Shown one piece after another: positions 1,104 to 18,506 of a DNA stretch of 64,000 nucleotides. The stretch spans positions 124,001 through 188,000 of the forward strand of contig NZ_JAQFIF010000001.1 in assembly GCF_029504395.1 (NCBI RefSeq), in the 5' to 3' direction. This DNA is from Arthrobacter sp. ES3-54. GTDB taxonomy: Bacteria; Actinomycetota; Actinomycetes; Actinomycetales; Micrococcaceae. The notes under the pieces were generated by a model. The model did not search any database, had not been told where the DNA came from, and worked only from the letters and a program-made list of their open reading frames with translations. The position numbers were made by a program, and so were the translations under genes. The number at the start of each line of letters is the position of its first letter. Within the stretch, counting starts at the first letter, position 1.

Positions 1104-2756
1104 CTATCGGGGCTCGCCGGGTTCGGCGGGCTGCGCAACGCGCGGGGACGGGTCCGGTGCGCCGACGGCCTTATCGGGGAGGCGTCCGGTGATGAACAGT
1201 GCAGCGATCGCAAGCAGCGCGGTCAGGGCCAGTGCGGCCCGGAGGGCTTCCAGTCGGGAGTCCGAGTTGACGGACATGATGGCATCGGCCGTCGCCTGGT
1301 CGACTCCGGCGTCGTCCAGCGCGCCTTGGAGCTGGGTGTCGGAAATGAAAGGGACCCCGCTGGCGAGCTGGACCGAGGCCTGCTGCTGCACGGAGCTTGG
1401 CACGGCGGGATTGTCCTGGATGCCGGCCATAAACGACGTGCTCAAGGTGGCGATGAGGACCGATCCGATCAGGGCGGTCCCCAGGGAGGCCCCTAGGTTG
1501 GTGGCCGTGTTCTGCAGCCCGCCGACCTCCGCGCTCTGAGAGTCCGGCACCGCGGAGACCGTGATGGCGCCCAGCTGCGAGGACAGCGCCCCGAGTCCGA
1601 AGCCCATCAACAGCATCGGAATGGCGACAATGCCTGCGTTCGCCCCGGGGTCCATTCCCGCGACCAGGATGAGGATACCGACGATCATCACCATAAGCCC
1701 CAGCCGGACGACACGGCGGGGGTTGGCACGCGGCCAGGCCTTGGGGACTCCGACAGCGGCCAGTATCAGCGACACGGACAGCGGAAAGATCCGGATCCCG
1801 GTCTCCAGCGCGCTCAGCTCCAACACCACCGACAGGAACAGCGGGATGGTAAAGAACACGCCGGCCTGCACGAGGAATTGAGCGAAGAATACGCTGAGCC
1901 CGCCGGTGAGACGCTGGTTCCGGAACAGCGCGGGATCGATGAGCGGTTCGCCGCCCACTGAGGCGAGGTGTGAGGTCCGCCGCATGAACAGATAGAGGAC
2001 AAGCAGCCCGCCGATCAGCAGCCACACAACGGGAGAGAGCCCCATGACGGTCGGCGCGCCGGGCTTGGGCTGCACCCACCCCCACTCAGCCGAACGCAGC
2101 ACACCGTACACAACCAGGCCCAGTCCCAGTATCGACAGTGCGGAACTCACCAGATCGAGCCGGACCTTGGCCGGTGGAACGTCTTCGACCTTGCGCAGGA
2201 CCAGCAGGATGGCCAGGACGATGACGACCTCGCCGAGGAAGACATACCGCCAGGATGCAAACGTGGTCACTGCGCCGCCGATGAGCGGGCCCGCCGCGAC
2301 TGCCATGGCGCCCGCGGCAGCCACCAGCCCGTAGGCTGCGGCGCGGCGCTCGGGCGGGAAGTTGGCCGCCACCAGCGAGACGATCGCGGGCATGATCAGT
2401 GCCGCGCCGATCCCCTCTAACAGGGACCAGCCCAGGAGCAGCACCCCAAGGTTGGGGGCCAGGGCCGTAGTGAGCGAACCGGCGGCATAGATGATCAGGC
2501 CGAGGGCGAACGCCCGGCGGCGGCCCATGATGGTACCCACCTTGCCGCCGGTGACCATCAGCGACGCCATGACGAGCGTGTACAGGGTAATGGCCGTTTG
2601 GATGCCGGTGATCGTCGTGCCCAGGTCCGCGGCCACCGTGGCCATCGAAACGTTCATCACCGAGCTGTCGAGAGTCATCAGGAACTGGCCTGATGCCAGC
2701 ACGGCCAGGACCAGGCCGGAGCCAGTCCGCGCCGTTGTCGTTGCCCCGGCACTCAT
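1104..2756 (-). CDS. MFS drug-efflux transporter, DHA2 (14-TM) type
   Basis: Predicted proton-driven efflux permease of the cytoplasmic membrane, 550 residues, the usual size for 14-TM DHA2 (EmrB/QacA-like) transporters. The N-terminal helix contains the family signature L(M)TLDSSVMNVSMATVAADLG (about residues 29-49). This is followed by GGKVGTIMGRRRAFALG, the loop 2-3 motif of MFS, and LLEGIGAALIMPAIVSLVA plus GPLIGGAVTTFASWRYVFL, matching antiporter motif C. An open frame continues upstream to 3119, but that part reads through the phzF remnant. The ATG at 2756 (MSAGATTTARTG) is where MFS similarity starts; no strong Shine-Dalgarno is seen. Substrate cannot be read from sequence. No regulator gene is adjacent, and its upstream neighbours are pseudogenes. 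Confidence 0.85.
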   Translation of the reverse strand: MSAGATTTARTGSGLVLAVLASGQFLMTLDSSVMNVSMATVAADLGTTITGIQTAITLYTLVMASLMVTGGKVGTIMGRRRAFALGLIIYAAGSLTTALAPNLGVLLLGWSLLEGIGAALIMPAIVSLVAANFPPERRAAAYGLVAAAGAMAVAAGPLIGGAVTTFASWRYVFLGEVVIVLAILLVLRKVEDVPPAKVRLDLVSSALSILGLGLVVYGVLRSAEWGWVQPKPGAPTVMGLSPVVWLLIGGLLVLYLFMRRTSHLASVGGEPLIDPALFRNQRLTGGLSVFFAQFLVQAGVFFTIPLFLSVVLELSALETGIRIFPLSVSLILAAVGVPKAWPRANPRRVVRLGLMVMIVGILILVAGMDPGANAGIVAIPMLLMGFGLGALSSQLGAITVSAVPDSQSAEVGGLQNTATNLGASLGTALIGSVLIATLSTSFMAGIQDNPAVPSSVQQQASVQLASGVPFISDTQLQGALDDAGVDQATADAIMSVNSDSRLEALRAALALTALLAIAALFITGRLPDKAVGAPDPSPRVAQPAEPGEPR

Positions 2757-2789
2757 GGTCCCTGCCCAAGCGCTGTGCCGCTGGACGTT

Positions 2790-3460
2790 GCGCGCATGAA
2801 CGACATGCTCCGCGCACCCGGATCCCCTGTCAAGGTAGCGCGTTGACCCAATAAAAACGCGGTAGGCGGAGGGGCCGGCTTTCGTGGCAGCGAGCCACTG
2901 CCCGACACTGGCGTTCATGCCGCGCAAACGGGGTCCTCGGCCACCCCCACTCCCGGCGCGAAGGTGCGCATCTCGAAGGCATGTTCTGAGCCTTCCGGGT
3001 GGCGGCCGATCGCTCCAACCATCGCCTCGGGGATAGCGGACAGATCGGGCTCCAGCGCGAGGACTTCCTCCGCGCTGGCAAGCTGCACGACCGCCCACCC
3101 TGGGCCATTGTCGACCCACTGGTGGGCCAGGACTTTGGAACGGCCGATGCCGAAAGCAGCCGCGATGTCCCCGACGTAGGACTCTTCAAGGGGACCGGTA
3201 CGGGTGGTCGGCGGGGCCGCGAAGGACAGTGCGCTGCCGTTCCGGCGCACCTCGACCAGCCCGGCTTTGCATTCCTGGATGATGCGCTGGTCCGATTGCG
3301 GGTGTCCGCCCTGTTCGAGCCAGGCGTGCGCTGAGCCAAGGGTCGGGTGTCCGGCGAATGGCAGTTCACCGCCGGGACTGAAGATGCGCAGCCGGTAGTC
3401 CGCCTCAGGGGGGAGGGCATCTGACGATTCAGGCGCGGGATACGGTGATGGTGACGTTGG
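2790..3460 (-). pseudogene. PhzF-family epimerase/isomerase remnant (5'-truncated and frameshifted)
   Basis: PhzF proteins have the diaminopimelate-epimerase fold and are usually about 270-290 residues. Here the recognisable part begins near 3435 with YRLRIFSPGGELPFAGHPTL, the conserved block of the first domain, and runs through FEMRTFAPGVGVAEDPV to a stop at 2915. The expected next block (NASVGQWLA) is present in another frame starting at about 2915, so there is a frameshift near 2920. Roughly the first 55 residues, including the part with the catalytic Glu, are missing: the sequence upstream of about 3440 belongs to the HNH remnant. The end is vague because similarity fades around 2790. 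Two independent lesions make this a dead gene. Confidence 0.75.
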
Positions 3461-4098
3461 GGCAGGAGGCCCCAGCGGATCTTCACCGCCACCCACTGGC
3501 CGATGTACGCGCAGCGGTTCTTCGGCGGCATCCACGCCTCCGGGCCACTGGCCTGCTTCGAGGAGTTGAGCGCGGACGTCTGGGCGCTCAGGGTACGGCT
3601 GTCGCCGAGGTCGTTGTAGAAGGCCACGCGCCGGGCCTGGGACCAGTACCTGGCCCCGGATCCCCAGGCCTCATGAACCGGAACCGTGTGGGCTATCTGC
3701 ACCGTCGACGCGGAGGTGTGAACGCGGTTGTCCCACGATGTCACCCAGCGTCCCGTACTGGCCGTGCAGCCGCGGCTGGTAAACGACACGGCGGTCTTGG
3801 ATTCCTGGACCAGTACTTCTTGACGCGTGTTCTGGTAATCCCCGTTGGTATCCCGCCAGACGCCGAAATAACGGTCCCGGTCATAGCCGGCATTGACCTC
3901 GGCCGCGACGATGAGTCCGCGCACGGCAGTGCGCAGCGGAGCCTTGTACACGGTGGCTGCTTCGGCTGGAACGGCAAGGCCGCTCAGCATCAGGCCTGCC
4001 GCGACCACCAATGCACCTGCCGCCCGCCGCAGCGGAAGCAACCGACTGGATTTCAGTGCCAGCCAGGTCCGCGCCGCAACCAAGGAACTGAGCCGCAA
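3460..4098 (-). pseudogene. Secreted HNH-nuclease-like protein (DUF1524/GmrSD-C type), 3'-truncated
   Basis: The start at 4098 gives a signal peptide (RRAAGALVVAAGLMLSGLAVPAEA, cleavage near residue 47). A DUF1524-like domain follows: GYDRDRYFGVWRDTNGD, TRQEVLVQES, a W-rich segment, VPVHEAWGSGARYW, FYNDLGDS and EAWMPPKNRCAYIGQWVAVKIRWGL. Similarity stops abruptly near residue 211 (about 3466), where the frame runs into the phzF remnant; intact homologues go on about 15-20 residues. The catalytic motif normally reads I-D-H-x-V-P-L-A-E-A-W. Here it is IAHTVPVHEAW, with the Asp before the His replaced by Ala, so the protein was probably inactive even before truncation. The junction with phzF near 3440-3468 looks like a deletion fusing two neighbours. 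Confidence 0.75.
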
Positions 4099-4158: not shown

Positions 4159-6054
4159 TCACGAGAACTCCTGGAGCCGCTCGACAACGATGATCCGCGC
4201 TGCTGCCTCGATCAGCGCGAGGTGGGAGAACGCCTGCGGGAAGTTGCCGAGGTGCCTGCCGGTGTCGACATCGAACTCCTCGGCGAAGAGCCCGAGCGGC
4301 GAGGCGACCCGCAACAGCTTCTCCATCAGGTCACGCGCCCGCTGCTCCTCGCCGATGATCGCCAGCGCGGACACGAGCCAGAACGAGCAGATCAGGAATG
4401 TGCCCTCCTTTCCGGACATGCCGTCGTCAGTCTCGCCGGTGCGGTAGCGCAGCACGAAGCCGTGCTCTGTCAGCTCGTCGGCGATGACGAGCACGCTGGC
4501 CCGGAGCCGCTTGTCATCTGGGGGCAGGAATCCGAAGATGGCGGCCAGCAAGGTGGAGGCGTCCAGCGCGTCCGTGTCGTAGTGCTGACGGAGCACACCC
4601 CGCTTGTCGACGCCGTGCTCGAGGATGTCGGCCTTGATCTCATCCGCGGTGTCCCGCCAAGTCGCGATGAGATCTGTGTCGCCGCGGATCCCGGCCAGCT
4701 TCGCGGCGCGATCCAACGCGACCCAGCCCATCAGCTTGGAGGACACGTAGTGCTGGGGCTTACCGCGGGCCTCCCAGATTCCCTGATCGGGTTCGCGCCA
4801 GACGGCGGTGGCGCATTCGGCTTGGGACTTGATGATGGGCCATAGCCGCAGTGGCAGCCGGTCACTGCGTCGGGTGTGTAACAGGATGGAGTCGAGCACG
4901 GCGCCGAACACGTCATTTTGGCGTTGGTCGAACGCTCCGTTGCCGATCCGGACCGGTCGGGCACCCGCGTAGCCGGACAGATCGTCGCGGGTGGACTCGG
5001 TCAGATCGCGCCGGCCGTCGATGCCGTACATGATCTGCAGCGCGCCGTCGGACTTCGGCTCGAGGTCGGCGACGAACTGGATGAACTCCTCGGCCTCCCA
5101 GTCGAGATTCAGGTAATGCAGCGCCTGCAAGGTGAAGGTGGTGTCGCGCATCCAGGTGAAGCGGTAGTCCCAGTTGCGCTCACCGCCAGGCGTCTCCGGC
5201 AGCGACGTGGTGAGCGCGGCGACAGTGGCCCCGGTCGGCATGTAGGTGAGGCCCTTGATGGCTAGCGCTGAGCGCTGGATCGGGTCGCGAAAGCGGTGGT
5301 CGGGCATTCGCGCCCGGCCCAACCAGGTGCGCCAGAACCGCGTGGTGGCATTGATGCGGCGGGTGGCGTCCAGGACGTCGCCCGGCGCATTCAGCCCCTC
5401 GGCCCACGACAGTGCGCAGTAGAACTCCTCACCGGCGGACAGGACGTGTCGGGCGCGGACCCGTTCGCCCTCGACGCCGAGGGCGAAATCGGTCTGCAGC
5501 CTGATTGTCTGGCCCGCACCGCTGGCATCGGCGATGTGTCGACTGCCGTCGACCAACGTCCATGCGGCTGGCGTCCGGCCGTAGTCGAACACCGGCTCGC
5601 AGACCAGCTCCATCTCGACGGTGCCGTCCAGGCAGCGGACGGTACGCACCAGCAGGTGATCGGCGTCGTCGTCGGCGGGCGGTCGGGTATGCGGGGTGAC
5701 CTCGTCCTCGCTCTCCCGCGGGCCCATGGTCAAGGCGTCGCGGACCTCAACCCAACCCGTCTGGGTCTTCCAGGTCGTGCAGAGGACGTTGGTCCCGGGC
5801 TCATACACCTGGGCTGTCGGGTGGTTGGTCCCGAACGGGCCGAGCCTGAAGTAGCCGGCTCCGCGATCGAGCAGGGTGCCGAACACGCTGGGTGAGTCGA
5901 AACGCGGGACGCAGAGCCAGCCGACGCCTCCGTCGGGCGCGATGAGGGCGCCCGTGTGGCAGTTCGATAGGAAGGCATAGTCCGCGATCGGCGGGAACGG
6001 GGAGGGCGCGGCAGCGCTCTGCTCGGTGGCCTGCCGCGGAGCGTTGGGACTCAT
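4159..6054 (-). CDS. Glycoside hydrolase family 15 protein, probably trehalase-type
   Basis: 631 residues, inverting glycosidase with an (alpha/alpha)6 barrel; the N-terminus [20 protein letters not shown] and overall length resemble mycobacterial GH15 trehalases, so alpha,alpha-trehalose is the favoured substrate, with glucoamylase-like activity as the alternative. GH15 marks visible are [16 protein letters not shown], the general-acid region [20 protein letters not shown] (Glu in WEARG) and the C-terminal [11 protein letters not shown] (second Glu). No signal peptide, so probably cytoplasmic. Its ATG at 6054 overlaps the TGA of zwf (ATGA), indicating translational coupling; an ATG at 6078 is an alternative. 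Glucose released here could, after phosphorylation, feed the upstream G6PDH. Confidence 0.85.
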
Positions 6055-7496
6055 GACGGCACCCAGGGCCGGTGCCAACCGACGTAGTCGGCGGTCAGTT
6101 CATCTGCAGCTGTCGGACCCCAAGACCCGGGCGTGTAGCTGTGCACCGGTGGCGGCGCATCCAGGAGTGGCTGCATGATCCGCCACGTCTCCTCGACCCC
6201 GTCCTGGCGGGTGAACCGCGTACTCTTCCCGACCATCGCCGCCTGGAGCAACACCTCATACGGAGTCGGCCCCTCGCCCCCTTCATCGGCGAACTCCATG
6301 TCGAGATCGATGGCGCCGGGGCCGGCCGTGTCCGCACGTAGAGCCTCGACCTTGAGCCTGACGCCGGTCGACGGATCAAGCTTGATGACGATCTGGTTGG
6401 GCTCTGGTCGGCGATCGGATCCGAAGTTGAAGCCGAGCCGGGGCGGTTGCTTGAACACCAGCCGAAGCTCGGTCTGAGTGACCGGAAGCTTCTTGCCGGT
6501 CCGAATGAAGAACGGCACACCCGACCAGCGCCAATTGTCGATGTCGAGCCGCAACGCGGCGTACGTCTCCGTCGTCGAATCCGCGGTCACGCCGTTGATG
6601 CTCCGGTAACCCTCGTACTGGCCGCGGACGTAGTGGACAGGATCGGCCTCGGAGACCGCGCGGAACAAAGCGACCTGCGAGTCCTTGATCGTTTGCGGAT
6701 CACCCCCAGACGGTGGTTCCATTGCGGCCGCGGACACGACCTGCATGAGGTGATTGACCACCACGTCGCGCAGCGCACCGACGGGATCGTAGAAGTGGCC
6801 ACGGTCCTCGACGCCGAAGTCCTCGGCCATCGTGATCTGCACGCATTCGACATAGTTCCGGTTCCAGATCGGCTCAAGCATCGTGTTGGCGAACCGCAGG
6901 TAAAGGATCTCCTCCAGGCCCATCTTCCCCAGGTAGTGGTCGATCCGGTACAACTGCGATTCGTCGAGGAACTGGTGCAACTCCTCGGCCAGGGCGCGAG
7001 CCGAGGCTCGGTCACTCCCGAACGGCTTCTCCACCACCACCCGCCCCGTCGCGGTCAGGCCGGCCCCGGCCAGGCCCTTGACGACTGTGCCGAACAGGAA
7101 GGGTGGGACTTCGAGGTAGAACACCGGGCTGTCGGCGCCCTTGATCGCCTCGGCGACCCGCCCATAGGTCGCTGCATCGCCGAAATCGCCCTGCACATAG
7201 GACAGCCGGGCCGCGAAACGGCCGAAGACGTCGGCGTCGATCACCTCCCCAGTGCCTTCGATCGAAACCCGGGCCCGTTCCACCAACTGGTCAACCGTCC
7301 AATCATCGACAGCCACCCCGACGATCGGGCACTGCAACAAACCCCGCCGCTCCAGCCGGTACAACGATCTGAACGTCATTACCCTGGCCAGGTCGCCGGT
7401 GATCCCGAACACCACGAACACATCGGCGGAACCCTGACCAGCGCTAGCCGGCTGGCCACGCCCAGCCGCGGTTCGGCTATTCATCGTTGCTGTCAT
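6051..7496 (-). CDS. zwf: Glucose-6-phosphate 1-dehydrogenase
   Basis: 481 residues; oxidises glucose 6-phosphate to 6-phosphogluconolactone with NAD(P)+, entry to the oxidative pentose phosphate route, cytoplasmic. The N-terminal dinucleotide motif reads [12 protein letters not shown] (about residue 30) rather than the commoner GATGDLAKRK. The active-site signature YRIDHYLGK is intact, as are EKPFGSD and [15 protein letters not shown] 7496 follows GGAG at good spacing; the ATG at 7484 and the longer frame to 7922 are less likely. First gene of a two-gene minus-strand unit with the GH15 gene, and divergent from the GMC-cydAB genes across 219 bp. The divergence from typical actinobacterial zwf-opcA context suggests an accessory second copy, which is inference. 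Confidence 0.88.
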
Positions 7497-7715
7497 GGCA
7501 TCTCCTCGACGTGATCGGCCCTCTACCGGCAAATGAATCTGCTCGTGGCCTCCGTGCGGCAGCTGACGCAGACCGGTTTCTATCAGAGCCAACCACCGCC
7601 TCCCGGTCCCCGTCACCACCCATTTTGGGTGATGACGCCGTCCACCCCGGGGGGCAGGCTCAATGTCTAGAGGCAGCATCGGTAGATCCGAGAACAGGCT
7701 CCAGGAGGATGCGGC

Positions 7716-9296
7716 GTGACAGACGGCCAGCACTATGACGTTGTCATCATCGGGACGGGAGCCGGGGGCGGGACGCTCGGCCACCGGCTTGCTACGAACG
7801 GGGCGAAGGTGCTCTGGCTGGAGCGAGGTCCGTTCCTGCCGCGTGAGCGCGACAACTGGCAGACCGAGGCGGTGTTCGTCCGCGGAAAGTACCTTGCGAA
7901 AGAGCTGGGGTACGACCGGCACGGCAGCGAGTTCCAGCCCGAGGTCAACTACTACGTCGGCGGGAACACCAAGTTCTACGGCGCGGCACTGTTCCGCCTC
8001 CGTCCGGAGGACTTTGGCGAGCTACGCCATCATGGCGGAATCTCACCGGCCTGGCCGATCTCCTACGACGACCTGGAGCCCTACTACACCCAAGCCGAAC
8101 ATCTCTACCTGGTGCACGGTCAGCACGGCGAGGACCCGAGCGAAGGCCATGCCAGCGCGCAGTACGCCCACCCTCCGGTATCCCACGAACCTCGCATCCA
8201 GCAGTTGAACGACGACCTGGAGAAGCTCGGGCTGCACCCCTTCCACCTCCCGATCGGCGTCAACCTCCAGGAGATCGAACCTGGACGGGCGGCACGGGCA
8301 AGTGCGTGCATCCGCTGCGACCGGGTCGATGGCTTCCCATGCCTGCTGAACGCAAAATCGGACTCGCAAGTCATCTGCGTGGATCCGGTGCTCTCCCAGG
8401 ACAACGTCACACTGGTCACCGGCGCCCAAGTGCAGCGCCTGGAAACCGACGCCTCAGGACACAGCGTCACCGGGGTCGTCACAACCTTGGACGACGGCAC
8501 CGAGACCAGATTCACCGGCGACATCGTGGTCGTCGCCTGCGGCGCGGTTAACTCCGCCGCCCTGCTGCTCAGATCTCGCCAAGACCGCCACCCCGACGGG
8601 CTGGCCAACAGCTCCGGAGTGGTCGGCCGGCACTACATGCGGCACAACAACATCGCGCTGATGACCGTTTCCCGGGAGCCCAACCCCACGCTGTTCCAGA
8701 AGACGCTGGCGATGAACGACTGGTATCTGGGGTCCGACGACTGGGACTATCCGCTCGGCGGTATCCAGATGCTCGGCAAGTCCGACGACGAGGAGCTCCG
8801 CGCGCAGTCGCCGCGATGGGCCGGCAAGATCTCTCCGGACCTGCCCTTCGAGGTGCTGGCGCACCACGCCGTCGACTTCTGGCTCTGCGGCGAAGACCTA
8901 CCGCAACCCGACAATCGCGTCACGCTCGACGCGGACGACGCCATCCACCTCAGCATAGATGAGAAGAACAACGTCGAAGGAGTAAAGCGGCTGCGCCACA
9001 AACTCGACGGCATGCTCGGCAAGCTGGGCATGCACGAGCACCATCTGCTGGACCGGAGCCTCTACCTGCACAAGAGCATGCCGATCGGCGCCACCGCGCA
9101 CCAAGCAGGCACCGTCCGTTTCGGCCGAGATCGCGCAACCAGCGCTCTCGACGTGAACTGCAAAGCCCACGACCTGGACAACCTCTACGTCGTCGACACC
9201 AGCTTCTTCCCCAGCATCGGCGCCGTGAACCCGTCCCTGACCGCAATCGCCAACGCCCTGCGGGTCGGCGACCACCTCACCGAACGCCTTGGCTAG
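7716..9296 (+). CDS. GMC-family FAD oxidoreductase (sugar/polyol dehydrogenase type)
   Basis: 526 residues. FAD-binding Rossmann motif [20 protein letters not shown] at residues 7-26, then the GMC signature around [18 protein letters not shown]. The C-terminal catalytic region has His in [17 protein letters not shown] and Asn in the [16 protein letters not shown] segment, so the active-site His/Asn pair is present. A cysteine cluster [12 protein letters not shown] (C-x2-C-x7-C, about residues 196-207) is reminiscent of Fe-S ligating cysteines of some FAD-dependent glucose dehydrogenases, but this is a guess. GTG start preceded by AGGAGG. It lies 48 bp upstream of cydA on the same strand, so electrons from its substrate might enter the quinone pool that cytochrome bd oxidises. 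The substrate is unknown. Confidence 0.85.
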
Positions 9297-9344
9297 TCCC
9301 CGGGTCGCCATGGCAGCTGTCAATCCCGCGGGAAGGGGTGCGAC

Positions 9345-10754
9345 ATGACGCTGTTCGCGGACGTCCTCATCCCCGTGATAGAGGTGAACCCGGTTCCGTG
9401 GGCTCGAGCACAGATGGCGTTCACGCTGGCCTTCCACATCATCTTGGTGCCACTCGGCGTGTCCTGGTCGGTGATGGCGCTGATCGCCAACTATCGAGGC
9501 ATCAGGCGGGCCGACGCTGACGCCATCCGGCTCGCGCAGCGCTGGTCGAAGTACATGGCGGTCACCTTCGCAGTCGGCGCCGTCACCGGAACGGTTCTCT
9601 CCTTCGAGTTCGGCCTGCTGTGGCCTCAGTTCATGGGTCACTGGGGCGAGGCGTTCGGCGTGCCTTTCGCGTTCGAGGGTCTCTTCTTCTTTCTCGAGGC
9701 CGTTTTCATCTCGATCTACATCTTCGGCTGGCGGCGGCTCAAGCCCTGGACCCACTTCTGGACCGGTGTCCCGATCGCCGTCGCCGGCATCTTCGGCAGC
9801 GTTTCGGTGGTGGCCGCCAACGCGTGGATGAACTCCCCCGAAGGGGTCACTCTGGACACCGCCGGGAACGTCGTGGCGGTGGACCCGCTCGGGGTGATCT
9901 TCAACGGGGCGATGCCGCTGATGGCGGCGCACATGGTGACTGCGGCCTACCTGGTCGGCGGCTTCCTGGTGGCCATGGTCTACGCGACGGCGATGCTGCG
10001 CGGGCGGCGGGACCATTATCACAGGCTCGGCTTTCTCATCGCCTTCACTGTGGCCGCCATCGCCGTCCCGGTGCAGATGGGGGTCGGTGACGGTCTAGCT
10101 CGCTGGGTCTATAGCAATCAGCCGGTCAAATTCGCCGCCATCGAGCTGGTGCCGACGACCAGCAGTGACGTGCCCGAGACGCTGCTCGGCCATCTCAACT
10201 CAGAAGGACAAGTGGTGGGCGGTGTCCCCATCCCCGGGCTCGCCTCGTGGTTGTCGGACCCCAGCACTGGCCGGGCGACCGTCGTGCAGGGGCTCGACGC
10301 TGTACCCGCCGACGAGCGGCCGACGAACCGCCAAGTGAACGTCGTCCATCTCGCTTGGGACATCATGGTCGGCGTCGGCACTGCCCTGTTCCTGCTCACG
10401 CTGTGGTACTTGGCATCGTGGATCTTCCGACGAGACATGCCTCGCAGCAAGTGGTTCCTGCGCTGCGCCGTCGCCGCCGGACCCCTCGCCGTCCTGACGA
10501 TGGAGGCGGGCTGGACCGTGAGCGAGGTCGGCCGTCAGCCGTGGATCGTCTACAACAAGATGCGGGTGGAGGACGCCGCGACCACCAACACCGGAGTCTG
10601 GATCACCTTCATCGCGGTCACGATCCTCTATATCGGGCTGGGCGTCACCACAATCCTCGTCTTGCGCGGGACGAGTCGTCGCTACCGTGGGGCACGCCGA
10701 TTCGAGGAGACAGACTCCCCGTACGGACCGCGCGAGCCGGTGAAAGAGACCTAG
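9345..10754 (+). CDS. cydA: Cytochrome bd-type quinol oxidase subunit I
   Basis: 469 residues, membrane quinol:O2 oxidoreductase that generates proton motive force without pumping. The conserved heme-ligand His is in LAFHIILVPLG (about residue 31). The acidic helix carries FEFGLLWPQFM and FEGLFFFLEAVF, and a further His is in MAAHMVTAAYLVG. The quinone-loop end GRQPWIVYNKMRVEDA is present. The Q-loop is short, as in the cyanide-insensitive (CIO-like) branch and unlike long-loop E. coli CydA. SD GGAAGGGG precedes ATG 9345. Followed after 9 bp by cydB. No cydDC (the assembly ABC transporter often in the same operon) follows, so it must be elsewhere if needed. Confidence 0.93.
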   Translation: MTLFADVLIPVIEVNPVPWARAQMAFTLAFHIILVPLGVSWSVMALIANYRGIRRADADAIRLAQRWSKYMAVTFAVGAVTGTVLSFEFGLLWPQFMGHWGEAFGVPFAFEGLFFFLEAVFISIYIFGWRRLKPWTHFWTGVPIAVAGIFGSVSVVAANAWMNSPEGVTLDTAGNVVAVDPLGVIFNGAMPLMAAHMVTAAYLVGGFLVAMVYATAMLRGRRDHYHRLGFLIAFTVAAIAVPVQMGVGDGLARWVYSNQPVKFAAIELVPTTSSDVPETLLGHLNSEGQVVGGVPIPGLASWLSDPSTGRATVVQGLDAVPADERPTNRQVNVVHLAWDIMVGVGTALFLLTLWYLASWIFRRDMPRSKWFLRCAVAAGPLAVLTMEAGWTVSEVGRQPWIVYNKMRVEDAATTNTGVWITFIAVTILYIGLGVTTILVLRGTSRRYRGARRFEETDSPYGPREPVKET

Positions 10755-10763
10755 GGGTCACCC

Positions 10764-11807
10764 ATGGATACCGCCGCAGCCCTGCTCTTGTTCGCTGCCA
10801 TCACCATCTACGCGATCTTCGGCGGCGCTGACTTCGGTGCCGGCTTCTGGGACCTGACCGCTGGTGGCGCGCAGCGTGGGGAGCGGCCGCGCGAGGTAAT
10901 CGACCACTCGATAGGGCCCGTGTGGGAAGCGAACCACGTGTGGCTGATCTTCAGCTTCGTCGTGCTCTGGACGTGTTTCTCCGAGGCCTACGCGTCGATC
11001 ACCTTGACCATGTTCGTGCCCCTCACCATGGCGGCCCTCGGCATCGTCCTGCGCGGTGCCAGCTTCGCCTTCCGGAAGGCGGTGTTTCGGCGGCGAGCCC
11101 GCCGCAGCTTCGGCGCCATCTTCGCCGTCTCCTCGGTGCTGGTGCCCTACTGCTTCGGCGCCATCGCGGGAGGCATCGCATCCGGCCAGGTTCCGGCCGG
11201 CGGTCGGGCGGGCGATCCGCTGCACAGCTGGGTCAACCCGACGTCGGTCGTCATGGGTCTGCTCGCCGTATCCGTGACGGCCTACGTCGCCGCGGTACTG
11301 CTCACCTGGGATGCCCATCGCCTTTCCGACGAGGCGATGGTCGGCTACTTCCGCGTCCGCGCCGTGGCGGCTGGGGCCGTGGCTGGAGCCGTCGCGCTGG
11401 TCGGTCTCTTCGTCGTACGCAGCGAAGCCAGCTACGTCTTCGGAGGACTCACCTCACGCGCCCTGCCGCTGGTGATCATCTCGGCGGTCGCCGGGCTCGG
11501 CGCGCTTTTCCTGCTCCGAGGCCGACCCCACCGCGGAGGGCGGCTGGCTGCGATCGCCGCGGCCGGCGCCCTCGTGCTGGCCTGGGGCGTGGCACAGTGG
11601 GACTACCTGCTGCCCGAAACGCTCACGGTCTCGGCGGCCGCTGCGCCGTCGGGCACGATCACGGCCGTGCTGGTCGCGGCCGGTCTCGCCGTGCTGTTGA
11701 TCGTGCCGGCCTTCATCTTGTTGTACGTGCTCGACCAGCGCGGACTGCTTCCCGAAGAAGGCGTCGACGACGAGCCCGACCGGGGCTCCGGGGTCGTCCG
11801 TGCCTGA
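10764..11807 (+). CDS. cydB: Cytochrome bd-type quinol oxidase subunit II
   Basis: 347 residues with about eight or nine membrane helices, the non-catalytic partner of CydA that stabilises the heme core. Family marks are the N-terminal FGGADFGAGFWDL, EANHVWLIF around residue 54, and FRKAVFRRRARRSFGAIFA. SD AGGGGT sits just before ATG 10764, only 9 bp after the cydA stop, so the two are co-transcribed. The C-terminal tail is acidic (EEGVDDEPDRG). Downstream there is no cydDC; the next gene is a carbonic anhydrase after 406 bp of non-coding DNA. Confidence 0.93.
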   Translation: MDTAAALLLFAAITIYAIFGGADFGAGFWDLTAGGAQRGERPREVIDHSIGPVWEANHVWLIFSFVVLWTCFSEAYASITLTMFVPLTMAALGIVLRGASFAFRKAVFRRRARRSFGAIFAVSSVLVPYCFGAIAGGIASGQVPAGGRAGDPLHSWVNPTSVVMGLLAVSVTAYVAAVLLTWDAHRLSDEAMVGYFRVRAVAAGAVAGAVALVGLFVVRSEASYVFGGLTSRALPLVIISAVAGLGALFLLRGRPHRGGRLAAIAAAGALVLAWGVAQWDYLLPETLTVSAAAAPSGTITAVLVAAGLAVLLIVPAFILLYVLDQRGLLPEEGVDDEPDRGSGVVRA

Positions 11808-12213
11808 CTTCGCTGACGAGGCGGCAAGCAAGCGAGCCGTTGACCTCCTTGACACGCCTCAGTCTCACGAACGATCGATTATTGAGACAGGCGGCGGCTC
11901 GCCCGGGGCCTCAGGAGTTCCCTGCACCACAAGGGCCGCCGCTGTCTCGAAATGCCGTCCAACAAAAGGCGGTCTCACAACAGCGAATTGTTCGGGATTG
12001 AAAGAATACGGGAGAGTTGCCGGCTGTGATCGGATACCCGAGTTCTCGTGCTTCCTCCCCCGGCGGTCAGAGGCCCATGGAAGCCCCTTCAAGGCGACTA
12101 GTCAAACAACCGTTGTTGACGCCCTCCGAATGACATCCCAGCGGGTTTTCAAGTCCGCTCTGCCGCCGGGAATCTCTCTGCGACCCCGAGGCGGGACGAG
12201 TAACGTGGCAGGG
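11808..12213. other. Non-coding gap between cydB and the carbonic anhydrase gene
   Basis: No credible gene on either strand. It contains a hairpin-forming pair GTCTCA ... TGAGAC around 11863-11887, poorer in GC than the flanks. The only regulatory signal I can support is a TAACGT hexamer at 12201-12206, 7 nt before the GTG at 12214. Confidence 0.5.
12201..12206 (+). promoter_or_regulatory. Candidate -10 hexamer (TAACGT) for a leaderless carbonic anhydrase mRNA
   Basis: TAACGT lies 7 nt upstream of GTG 12214 and there is no Shine-Dalgarno at that start. The arrangement TANNNT-N6/7-RTG recurs at several genes in this window and is typical of leaderless actinobacterial transcripts. No clear -35 is seen. 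Confidence 0.45.
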
Positions 12214-12828
12214 GTGACTACCACTTTCAGCCCCGCCCAAGCATGGCAGCGCCTGCTTGAAGGCAACGCCCGTTTCGTCTCCGGCGAGGCCTTGCACCCG
12301 AACCAGGGGGTCGAGCGGCGCAGCGAGCTGGTTGATACCCAGCACCCTTTCGCGGTCATCTTCGGCTGCGCAGACTCCCGGCTGGCCGCGGAGATCATCT
12401 TCGACCTCGGCCTGGGTGACGCCTTCGTGGTCCGGACCGCCGGGCACGTGCTCGACGACGCTGTGCTGGGATCGCTCGAGTACGCCGTCTCGGTCCTGGG
12501 CGTCCCGCTGATCGTCGTCCTGGGCCACGACAACTGCGGGGCAGTCACCGCCACGAAGGACGCTGTGAGAACCGGGGATATGCCGCCGCGCTTCATCCGG
12601 GACCTGGTCGAACGCATCACCCCGTCGGTGCTGGCCTCCCTGCGCGATGACAAGACCGAGGTCAACGACATGGTCATCGAGCACGCCCGGCAGACGGTGG
12701 ACCGGCTGCTGGAGAGCTCCCAGGTCATCGCCTCCGCTGTGAAGGATTCTTCCACCGCGGTGCTCGGCGTCGCGTATCGTCTCGAAGAAGGCCGCGCGCA
12801 GCTGGTCTCCGGATCCGGCCTGCTCTAA
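12214..12828 (+). CDS. Beta-class carbonic anhydrase
   Basis: 204 residues; interconverts CO2 and bicarbonate, cytoplasmic zinc enzyme. The zinc-ligand motifs are GCADSRLA (Cys, with the Asp-Arg dyad) and GHDNCGAV (His and Cys). FVVRTAGHVLDD and GSLEYAVSVLG follow the standard order. The frame is open upstream to 11800, but similarity starts at TTTFSPAQAWQRLLEGN. I therefore chose GTG 12214, supported by a TAACGT -10-like hexamer 7 nt before it; GTG 12205 is the alternative. It is the last gene of the redox block and may supply bicarbonate for carboxylations, but no operon link to cydAB is evident. Confidence 0.88.
   Translation: MTTTFSPAQAWQRLLEGNARFVSGEALHPNQGVERRSELVDTQHPFAVIFGCADSRLAAEIIFDLGLGDAFVVRTAGHVLDDAVLGSLEYAVSVLGVPLIVVLGHDNCGAVTATKDAVRTGDMPPRFIRDLVERITPSVLASLRDDKTEVNDMVIEHARQTVDRLLESSQVIASAVKDSSTAVLGVAYRLEEGRAQLVSGSGLL

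Positions 12829-16738: not shown

Positions 16739-18506
<1,768 letters not shown>

Follow-up and report, generated by a model that had tools for sequence, protein, structure and literature searches.

A GMC-family flavoprotein gene linked to genes for quinol-type oxidases in Arthrobacter and other bacteria, and a candidate short respiratory chain from sugar to oxygen

We analyzed a window of 64,000 nucleotides from Arthrobacter sp. ES3-54 (contig NZ_JAQFIF010000001.1, positions 124,001 to 188,000; host genome total, 4.77 Mb), in which two divergent operons extend across positions 4159–11807. The minus-strand operon encodes a glucose-6-phosphate dehydrogenase (zwf) and a GH15 glucosidase, and the plus-strand operon encodes a GMC-family flavoprotein, probably a dehydrogenase, followed directly by the two subunits of a cytochrome bd oxidase (cydA and cydB) (Table 1). 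This arrangement had been reported in a preliminary description made from the sequence alone, and all of its genes are indeed present as open frames; position 7497, given there as the beginning of the region, is the edge of the divergent gap and not the GMC start codon. In the plus-strand operon, 48 bases separate the GMC stop codon from cydA and 9 bases separate cydA from cydB, while in the minus-strand operon the likely start of the GH15 gene overlaps the zwf stop codon.

Table 1. Features of the divergent locus and of one nearby gene (positions within the window)
Feature	Position	Strand	Basis or remark
GMC-family flavoprotein, probable dehydrogenase, 526 aa, GTG start	7716–9296	+	PF05199 and PF00732 over cut-off
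cydA, cytochrome bd oxidase subunit I	9345–10754	+	PF01654, 404 bits
cydB, cytochrome bd oxidase subunit II	10764–11807	+	PF02322, 191.3 bits
zwf, glucose-6-phosphate dehydrogenase, 481 aa, likely ATG at 7496	6051–7496	-	TIGR00871
GH15 glucosidase with trehalase-like N-terminal domain, likely ATG at 6054	4159–6054	-	PF00723, PF19291 (TREH_N)
Divergent intergenic gap, 219 bases, common to both operons	7497–7715		Between zwf and GMC starts
MFS transporter, longest open reading frame, true start probably later	1104–3119	-	PF07690, 150.3 bits; family F12

The GMC protein belongs to its family by a Rossmann motif for binding flavin adenine dinucleotide (FAD), whose GxGxxG region was conserved in the alignment, and by both GMC domains (PF05199, 64.9 bits against a cut-off of 24.6; PF00732, 37.8 bits against a cut-off of 23). 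Across an alignment of 72 rows, which omitted the majority of Streptomyces loci as well as eight loci that were short or duplicates, His462 was kept in 70 rows and Asn505 in 69; we take these residues to be the catalytic histidine and its partner. The N-terminus runs almost straight into the FAD-binding motif without an extension, leaving no evident signal peptide, and the hydropathy of 19-residue stretches never exceeded 1.75; the protein is probably cytoplasmic. In a search of PDB sequences, the best match was the FAD-dependent glucose dehydrogenase (FAD-GDH) of Burkholderia cepacia (117.6 bits), followed by the fructose dehydrogenase of Gluconobacter (up to 108.8 bits). When the predicted structure (mean predicted local distance difference test score, pLDDT, of 81; predicted template modeling score, pTM, of 0.88) was used for a fold search, the fructose dehydrogenase entries scored Z 42.9 to 35.1 and FAD-GDH scored 36.1 and 35.7. 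The nearest solved relatives, by both sequence and predicted fold, are thus subunits of 3Fe-4S glucose and fructose dehydrogenases. The protein was also compared with the mycofactocin dehydrogenase MftG, but this assignment was rejected (TIGR03970, 63.6 bits against a cut-off of 387.45).

Pyranose oxidases were the next fold neighbors (Z 33.8 and below), with the lowest fructose dehydrogenase entry, at 35.1, only slightly ahead of them. This proximity would fit a GMC protein that acts as an oxidase, using O2 and making H2O2, with the bd oxidase giving protection by O2 consumption or peroxide tolerance; bd oxidases do tolerate peroxide. We consider such an arrangement very improbable, as 3Fe-4S dehydrogenases lead the list of matches. 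Furthermore, no gene named catalase or peroxidase was found in the 22 plasmid regions described below, a count that covers these regions and not the window and draws on incomplete PLSDB gene tables.

The cysteine cluster C-x2-C-x7-C noticed in the preliminary description corresponds to Cys198, Cys201, and Cys209. In B. cepacia FAD-GDH, the ligands of the 3Fe-4S cluster are Cys212, Cys218, and Cys222, all in one loop (PMC6719666), and in a sequence alignment the three cysteines of the window protein fall on this loop with a spacing of x2/x7 rather than x5/x3. The three positions held three, two, one, and zero cysteines in 61, 1, 3, and 7 of the 72 aligned rows, respectively, and the number changed at least five times on the GMC tree; a fourth cysteine, in the form C-x2-C-x2-C-x4-C or nearly so, occurred in 22 rows. 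Such a distribution, close to all or none, would be expected of a shared metal site, without amounting to proof of an iron-sulfur (Fe-S) cluster, and an Fe-S center at Cys198/201/209 is plausible.

The window CydA belongs with the cytochrome bd oxidases, as CydA and CydB family matches and the heme-ligand and quinol-site segments were all found. Its nearest solved chain was 9r2g_A, annotated as "Cytochrome bd menaquinol oxidase subunit I" (385.8 bits), followed by 5doq_A (258.8 bits), and its alignment with these solved bd chains covered almost the whole protein, including the ligand-bearing segments. FHII, AAHM, DIMVG, KFAAIE, and GRQPW, which we take to be these heme-ligand and quinol-site segments, were all present and aligned.

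The association between GMC and oxidase genes was assessed in a class sample of 296 genomes not picked for linkage, 43 of which had a GMC match at an E value of ≤1e−40. Fifteen of the 18 GMC genes that were ≥55% identical to that of the window lay within 10 kb of a cydA gene, and these 15 spanned six of the seven family groups. The three exceptions were a second copy in genome G101, a gene whose nearest listed cydA was about 31 kb away (G182), and a gene on a contig of 3.6 kb (G190). For GMC genes at 42–48% identity, 11 of 18 were fetched with wide flanks, and matches at 30–38% were left out. A broader sample of 396 genomes from the phylum contained 11 that matched the GMC protein at E ≤1e−60; six genomes were of other classes, with a bd oxidase nearby in one (L149), none in another with full flanks (L152), and no oxidase found on the short contigs of the remaining four. 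Among the 80 closest named loci, an oxidase lay within 10 kb in 73, with the window type at 64 loci and a divergent bd at the other 9 (CydA 27–30% identical to that of the window); these loci are not independent, since Streptomyces accounts for 60 of them. An oxidase was also found at 7 of 14 further clade loci, and four of the seven oxidase-free loci were on short contigs. Partner genes were sought by tblastn (E ≤1e−8, ≥35% of the reference) with references taken from the same loci, and gene calling filtered by GC content at third codon positions, applied to 32 loci, was used only for finding families because it misses, merges, or mis-starts genes. These linkage rates rule out a chance neighborhood of the GMC and oxidase genes. 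Seen from the oxidase side, the link is looser: CydA proteins >50% identical to that of the window occurred without a GMC match in several genomes (e.g., G053 and G068).

Beyond Actinomycetota, we used 22 annotated plasmid regions from PLSDB, selected for diversity, not at random, among 88 matching records: 15 from Pseudomonadota and Cyanobacteriota in the same clade as the window GMC, 1 from Streptomyces, and 6 from a sister clade. Six of the 15 non-actinobacterial clade members had a nearby oxidase, and its type varied. A bo-type oxidase lay near the GMC gene in Paraburkholderia, Caballeronia, Lichenicola, and Roseomonas, while coxBAC plus cydAB occurred beside it on plasmids of Trichormus (L159) and Nostoc edaphicum (L163). 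On the latter two plasmids, the GMC gene lies between the operon for a CuA-less heme-copper oxidase and cydAB, with feoB nearby. The Nostocales CydA was 34% identical to the Pseudonocardia type and 28% identical to the window CydA and thus represents a further divergent bd. Cytochrome o models ranked first, below their equivalog cut-offs, for subunits I and II of L142 and L156 and for subunit II of L154; the Lichenicola oxidase (L155) was called bo-type from subunit I only, which was 82% identical to the scanned bo-type subunits I. The CuA motif was absent from all five heme-copper subunits II tested (including three of three bo-type proteins, with Lichenicola not among them), whereas the same expression found it in the CtaC protein of the host. 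Since their subunits II lack CuA, the tested partners look like quinol oxidases. The preliminary description had proposed a high-affinity oxidase for the chain. Because bo-type and other CuA-less heme-copper oxidases occur in part of the relatives, what the oxidase-bearing loci share is the quinol type of the oxidase and not high affinity.

When traced on the GMC tree (72 rows), the oxidase type changed at least eight times among the 37 oxidase-bearing rows, six times between the two actinobacterial bd types and twice between bd and other partners. When "none" was treated as a state, there were 16 changes, and presence or absence alone gave 10. Eight rows with no oxidase and less than 7.5 kb on one side were given no state, and a cox match found at the L038 edge was not counted. 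The sister clade (17 rows) split off with 100/99 support, and no oxidase was found at any of its 17 loci, four of which have one flank shorter than 5 kb. GH15, glucoamylase, zwf, gluconokinase, gluconolactonase, cyclase, and epimerase matches were likewise found at none of the 17, and SDR matches at three. In several of the sister-clade plasmids (L166–L169 and L160), the GMC gene is accompanied by hisD-like, Gfo/Idh/MocA, or sugar ABC transporter genes, suggesting that these GMC proteins probably serve another sugar pathway. A GMC gene on the Mesorhizobium sp. INR15 plasmid (L162) adjoins an annotated glucose/quinate/shikimate dehydrogenase dependent on pyrroloquinoline quinone (PQQ) together with pqqABCDE.

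Genes for handling glucose recurred around the GMC gene. The partners at the 80 closest named loci were a cyclase-family hydrolase (71 loci), GH15 (63), an SDR protein (61), gluconokinase (38), an aldose epimerase (26), an NDH2-like protein (23), and zwf (15), in shuffled order. For example, a stretch of a Streptomyces canus plasmid carries GH15, the cyclase, a 2-hydroxyacid dehydrogenase, gluconokinase, GMC, cydB, cydA, an NAD(P)/FAD oxidoreductase, and an SDR gene. The 15 non-actinobacterial clade members included seven with an SMP-30/gluconolactonase gene and seven with GH15 or glucoamylase, and PF08450 and PF10091 were each confirmed in one example from these loci. These recurrent neighbors point to an aldose as the putative substrate, most simply glucose oxidized at C1. 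Conservation of all five genes as a block, suggested as a check in the preliminary description, was not borne out at the 80 loci, where zwf is the loosest member. In the window itself, the longest zwf frame (6051–7922, minus strand) scored 462.9 bits against TIGR00871 (cut-off, 400.6), a value obtained on that longer frame, and the longest GH15 frame (4159–6078, minus strand) scored 232.4 bits against PF00723 and 51.7 bits against TREH_N. The GH15 protein reached 375.3 bits with the NCBIfam trehalase models, which are archaeal equivalogs with a cut-off of 820, and had no PDB match at the default limit.

Other genes recur as well. A Na+/H+ exchanger, a ClC channel, and DUF389 proteins are repeated neighbors in Streptomyces, and PRC-barrel, HdeA/HdeB-like, and YetF-domain proteins are encoded at proteobacterial loci. 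Taken with the many clade members that have no nearby oxidase, they could suggest a stress or redox island whose genes are co-induced by osmotic, acid, desiccation, or low-O2 conditions with no electron flow from the GMC protein to the oxidase. We regard this explanation as unlikely, because it does not account for unrelated quinol-type oxidases beside the same GMC clade, the lack of CuA in the five heme-copper subunits II, the recurring gluconolactonase or gluconokinase, or a sister clade without an oxidase in 17 of 17 loci. The NDH2-like genes, present also at 8 of the 14 further clade loci, and the DoxX genes found in 7 of the 15 non-actinobacterial members raise another scheme, in which the GMC protein would pass electrons to the product of a neighboring gene, such as an NDH-2-like flavoprotein or a membrane protein of the DoxX type, and this product would reduce quinone. 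The actinobacterial GMC enzyme MftG, reported to deliver electrons to the respiratory chain through an acceptor that has yet to be identified (PMC11778925), is in keeping with such an indirect route. However, neither gene was found in the window block and many linked loci show neither, and we judge this scheme quite improbable.

The two operons share the divergent gap, which contains an imperfect inverted repeat at positions 7611–7637. This repeat had a single match in the host genome within three mismatches, was kept with changes in Arthrobacter hankyongi, and was represented by one half in Nocardioides (L035) and by one half-site, with one mismatch, 73 bases before the GMC gene in L050; no wider pattern was found upstream of GMC in the other loci. 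It may be an operator. An ACCGG palindrome with a 4-base gap occurred in 26 of 78 upstream regions of named loci, mostly from Streptomyces, a count made with no shuffled control, and a DevR-box-like pattern was found in 1 of 135 upstream regions. The main text of the OsdR paper (PMC5069765) does not mention GMC, cydA, glucosidase, gluconokinase, or cytochrome. A promoter scan detected none, and terminator-like sites were at the level expected by chance.

The closest named match to the locus was in A. hankyongi (L064), in which the GMC protein is 98% identical and the order of zwf, GMC, cydA, and cydB is kept, with GH15 present only as a fragment close to the contig end. Two genomes of the same genus (G002 and G281) had no GMC match at E ≤1e−40 and one distant CydA match each. 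The host carries a second CydA gene on another contig, two further zwf copies (41% and 35% identity), and two gluconokinase-like genes elsewhere in its genome. Given these copies and the absence from same-genus genomes, the window block appears to be an accessory addition to a core that is already complete. The MFS gene is a possible further member of the module, as a homologue adjoins zwf in four genomes (L115–L118). Directly after cydB lies an open reading frame for a carbonic anhydrase (Pro_CA; 11800–12828, plus strand), the true start of which is probably well downstream of 11800 because the Pro_CA domain begins near residue 185. On the minus strand, the frames 2830–4098, without a Pfam family, and 2915–3535, which we take by eye to be PhzF-like, overlap in different frames and are possibly a frameshifted or merged gene pair. 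An aldo/keto reductase gene (16739–17782) and an SDR gene (17745–18506), both on the minus strand, lie about 7–9 kb from the GMC gene. A plasmid or mobile origin of the window was considered and set aside; farther downstream, the window encodes a peptide ABC transporter, a citrate synthase, and a DapD-like protein.

Considering the gene content and its relatives together, we favor, with somewhat better than even confidence, the reading that GMC-cydA-cydB would form a short dedicated respiratory chain from sugar through quinone to O2. In this chain, GH15 would free glucose inside the cell from an internal glucan or trehalose, and the cytoplasmic GMC flavoenzyme would oxidize it, most likely at C1, to the lactone. 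Electrons would pass from FAD through the probable Fe-S cluster at Cys198/201/209 directly to menaquinone at the membrane, and the adjacent CydAB would re-oxidize the menaquinol with O2. The product would join the pentose phosphate pathway in vivo as gluconate or 6-phosphogluconate, by way of gluconolactonase or gluconokinase in the relatives and alongside zwf here. This is essentially the carbohydrate-to-quinol-to-O2 chain proposed in the preliminary description; the recurrence of quinol-type oxidases of unrelated families and of glucose-handling genes argues for it. Free separation of the genes in other genomes had been named there as an outcome that would speak against the chain, and this holds in part, alongside the linkage in 73 of 80 loci.

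Several observations weigh against the chain. No oxidase was found within about 9–10 kb in 7 of the 80 named loci, 7 of the 14 further clade loci, and 9 of the 15 non-actinobacterial members; sampling beyond Actinomycetota was by choice and from plasmids only; just two events on the tree suffice to exchange bd for a heme-copper partner; and many neighbors are stress-type genes. The cysteine spacing of B. cepacia FAD-GDH is not that of the window protein, the oxidase-free sister clade often retains all three cysteines, and Roseomonas L156 keeps a complete bo operon beside a GMC protein with one of the three. Even a genuine cluster would therefore not account for the pairing of enzyme and oxidase, and the putative Fe-S center does not track the oxidase link. 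The route to the membrane is the missing link. The hitchhiker small subunit (PF13618) gave no match in the host genome, in a search whose control matched in 2 of 14; the PF12318 profile had no match in the controls either; and no gene for a cytochrome c electron-transfer subunit was found in the block, to which that search was confined.

A broader proposal is that the locus represents a widespread and perhaps undescribed module, in which a soluble cytoplasmic Fe-S GMC protein would reduce quinone without membrane or cytochrome subunits and would have been re-paired repeatedly, in three phyla, with different quinol oxidases, namely divergent bd types, bo, and a CuA-less heme-copper oxidase together with bd. 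We put this forward tentatively, as a possibility that we hold somewhat doubtful. If true, it would mean that stored glucan or trehalose can be burned straight to O2 independently of NAD(P)H. Paired with an oxidase of its own, an enzyme of this kind would serve cells under redox stress or in scavenging O2, for example in Nostocales, where GMC has an oxidase operon on either side at two plasmid loci. That different oxidases accompany a single dehydrogenase clade turns the electron path into a sharp prediction, which can be tested in named organisms. An open-access literature search, the scope of which did not include subscription papers and preprints, found no description of this cluster among the titles and abstract openings listed.

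The system would fall within the known quinone-linked sugar dehydrogenases and is not a new class. The known examples are mainly complexes that contain a cytochrome subunit and reside in the periplasm or the membrane. Like the alpha subunit of B. cepacia FAD-GDH (6a2u), the window protein has the GMC fold (490 aligned residues, Z 36.1) and cysteines in the corresponding loop, and its gene neighbors suggest a glucose-type substrate. Unlike FAD-GDH, whose ligands (PMC6719666) are spaced C-x5-C-x3-C, it has C-x2-C-x7-C, and its gene leaves no room for a subunit gene before cydA and shares an operon with an oxidase. The best fold matches were to the large subunit of Gluconobacter japonicus fructose dehydrogenase (9jqa, 8k6k, 8jej, and 7w2j; for 9jqa, Z 42.9 over 493 residues, root-mean-square deviation 3.2, about 24% identity). 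Fructose dehydrogenase couples sugar oxidation to quinone and, in contrast to the window protein, is membrane-bound through partner subunits. MftG provides a precedent for an actinobacterial GMC enzyme that feeds respiration but differs in gene neighborhood and profile score. Finally, CydA resembles the bd menaquinol oxidase 9r2g_A and the bd-type quinol oxidase 5doq_A in its near full-length alignment and retained ligand segments, whereas, unlike these reference oxidases, the window bd is the accessory second bd of its genome and is encoded together with a dehydrogenase.

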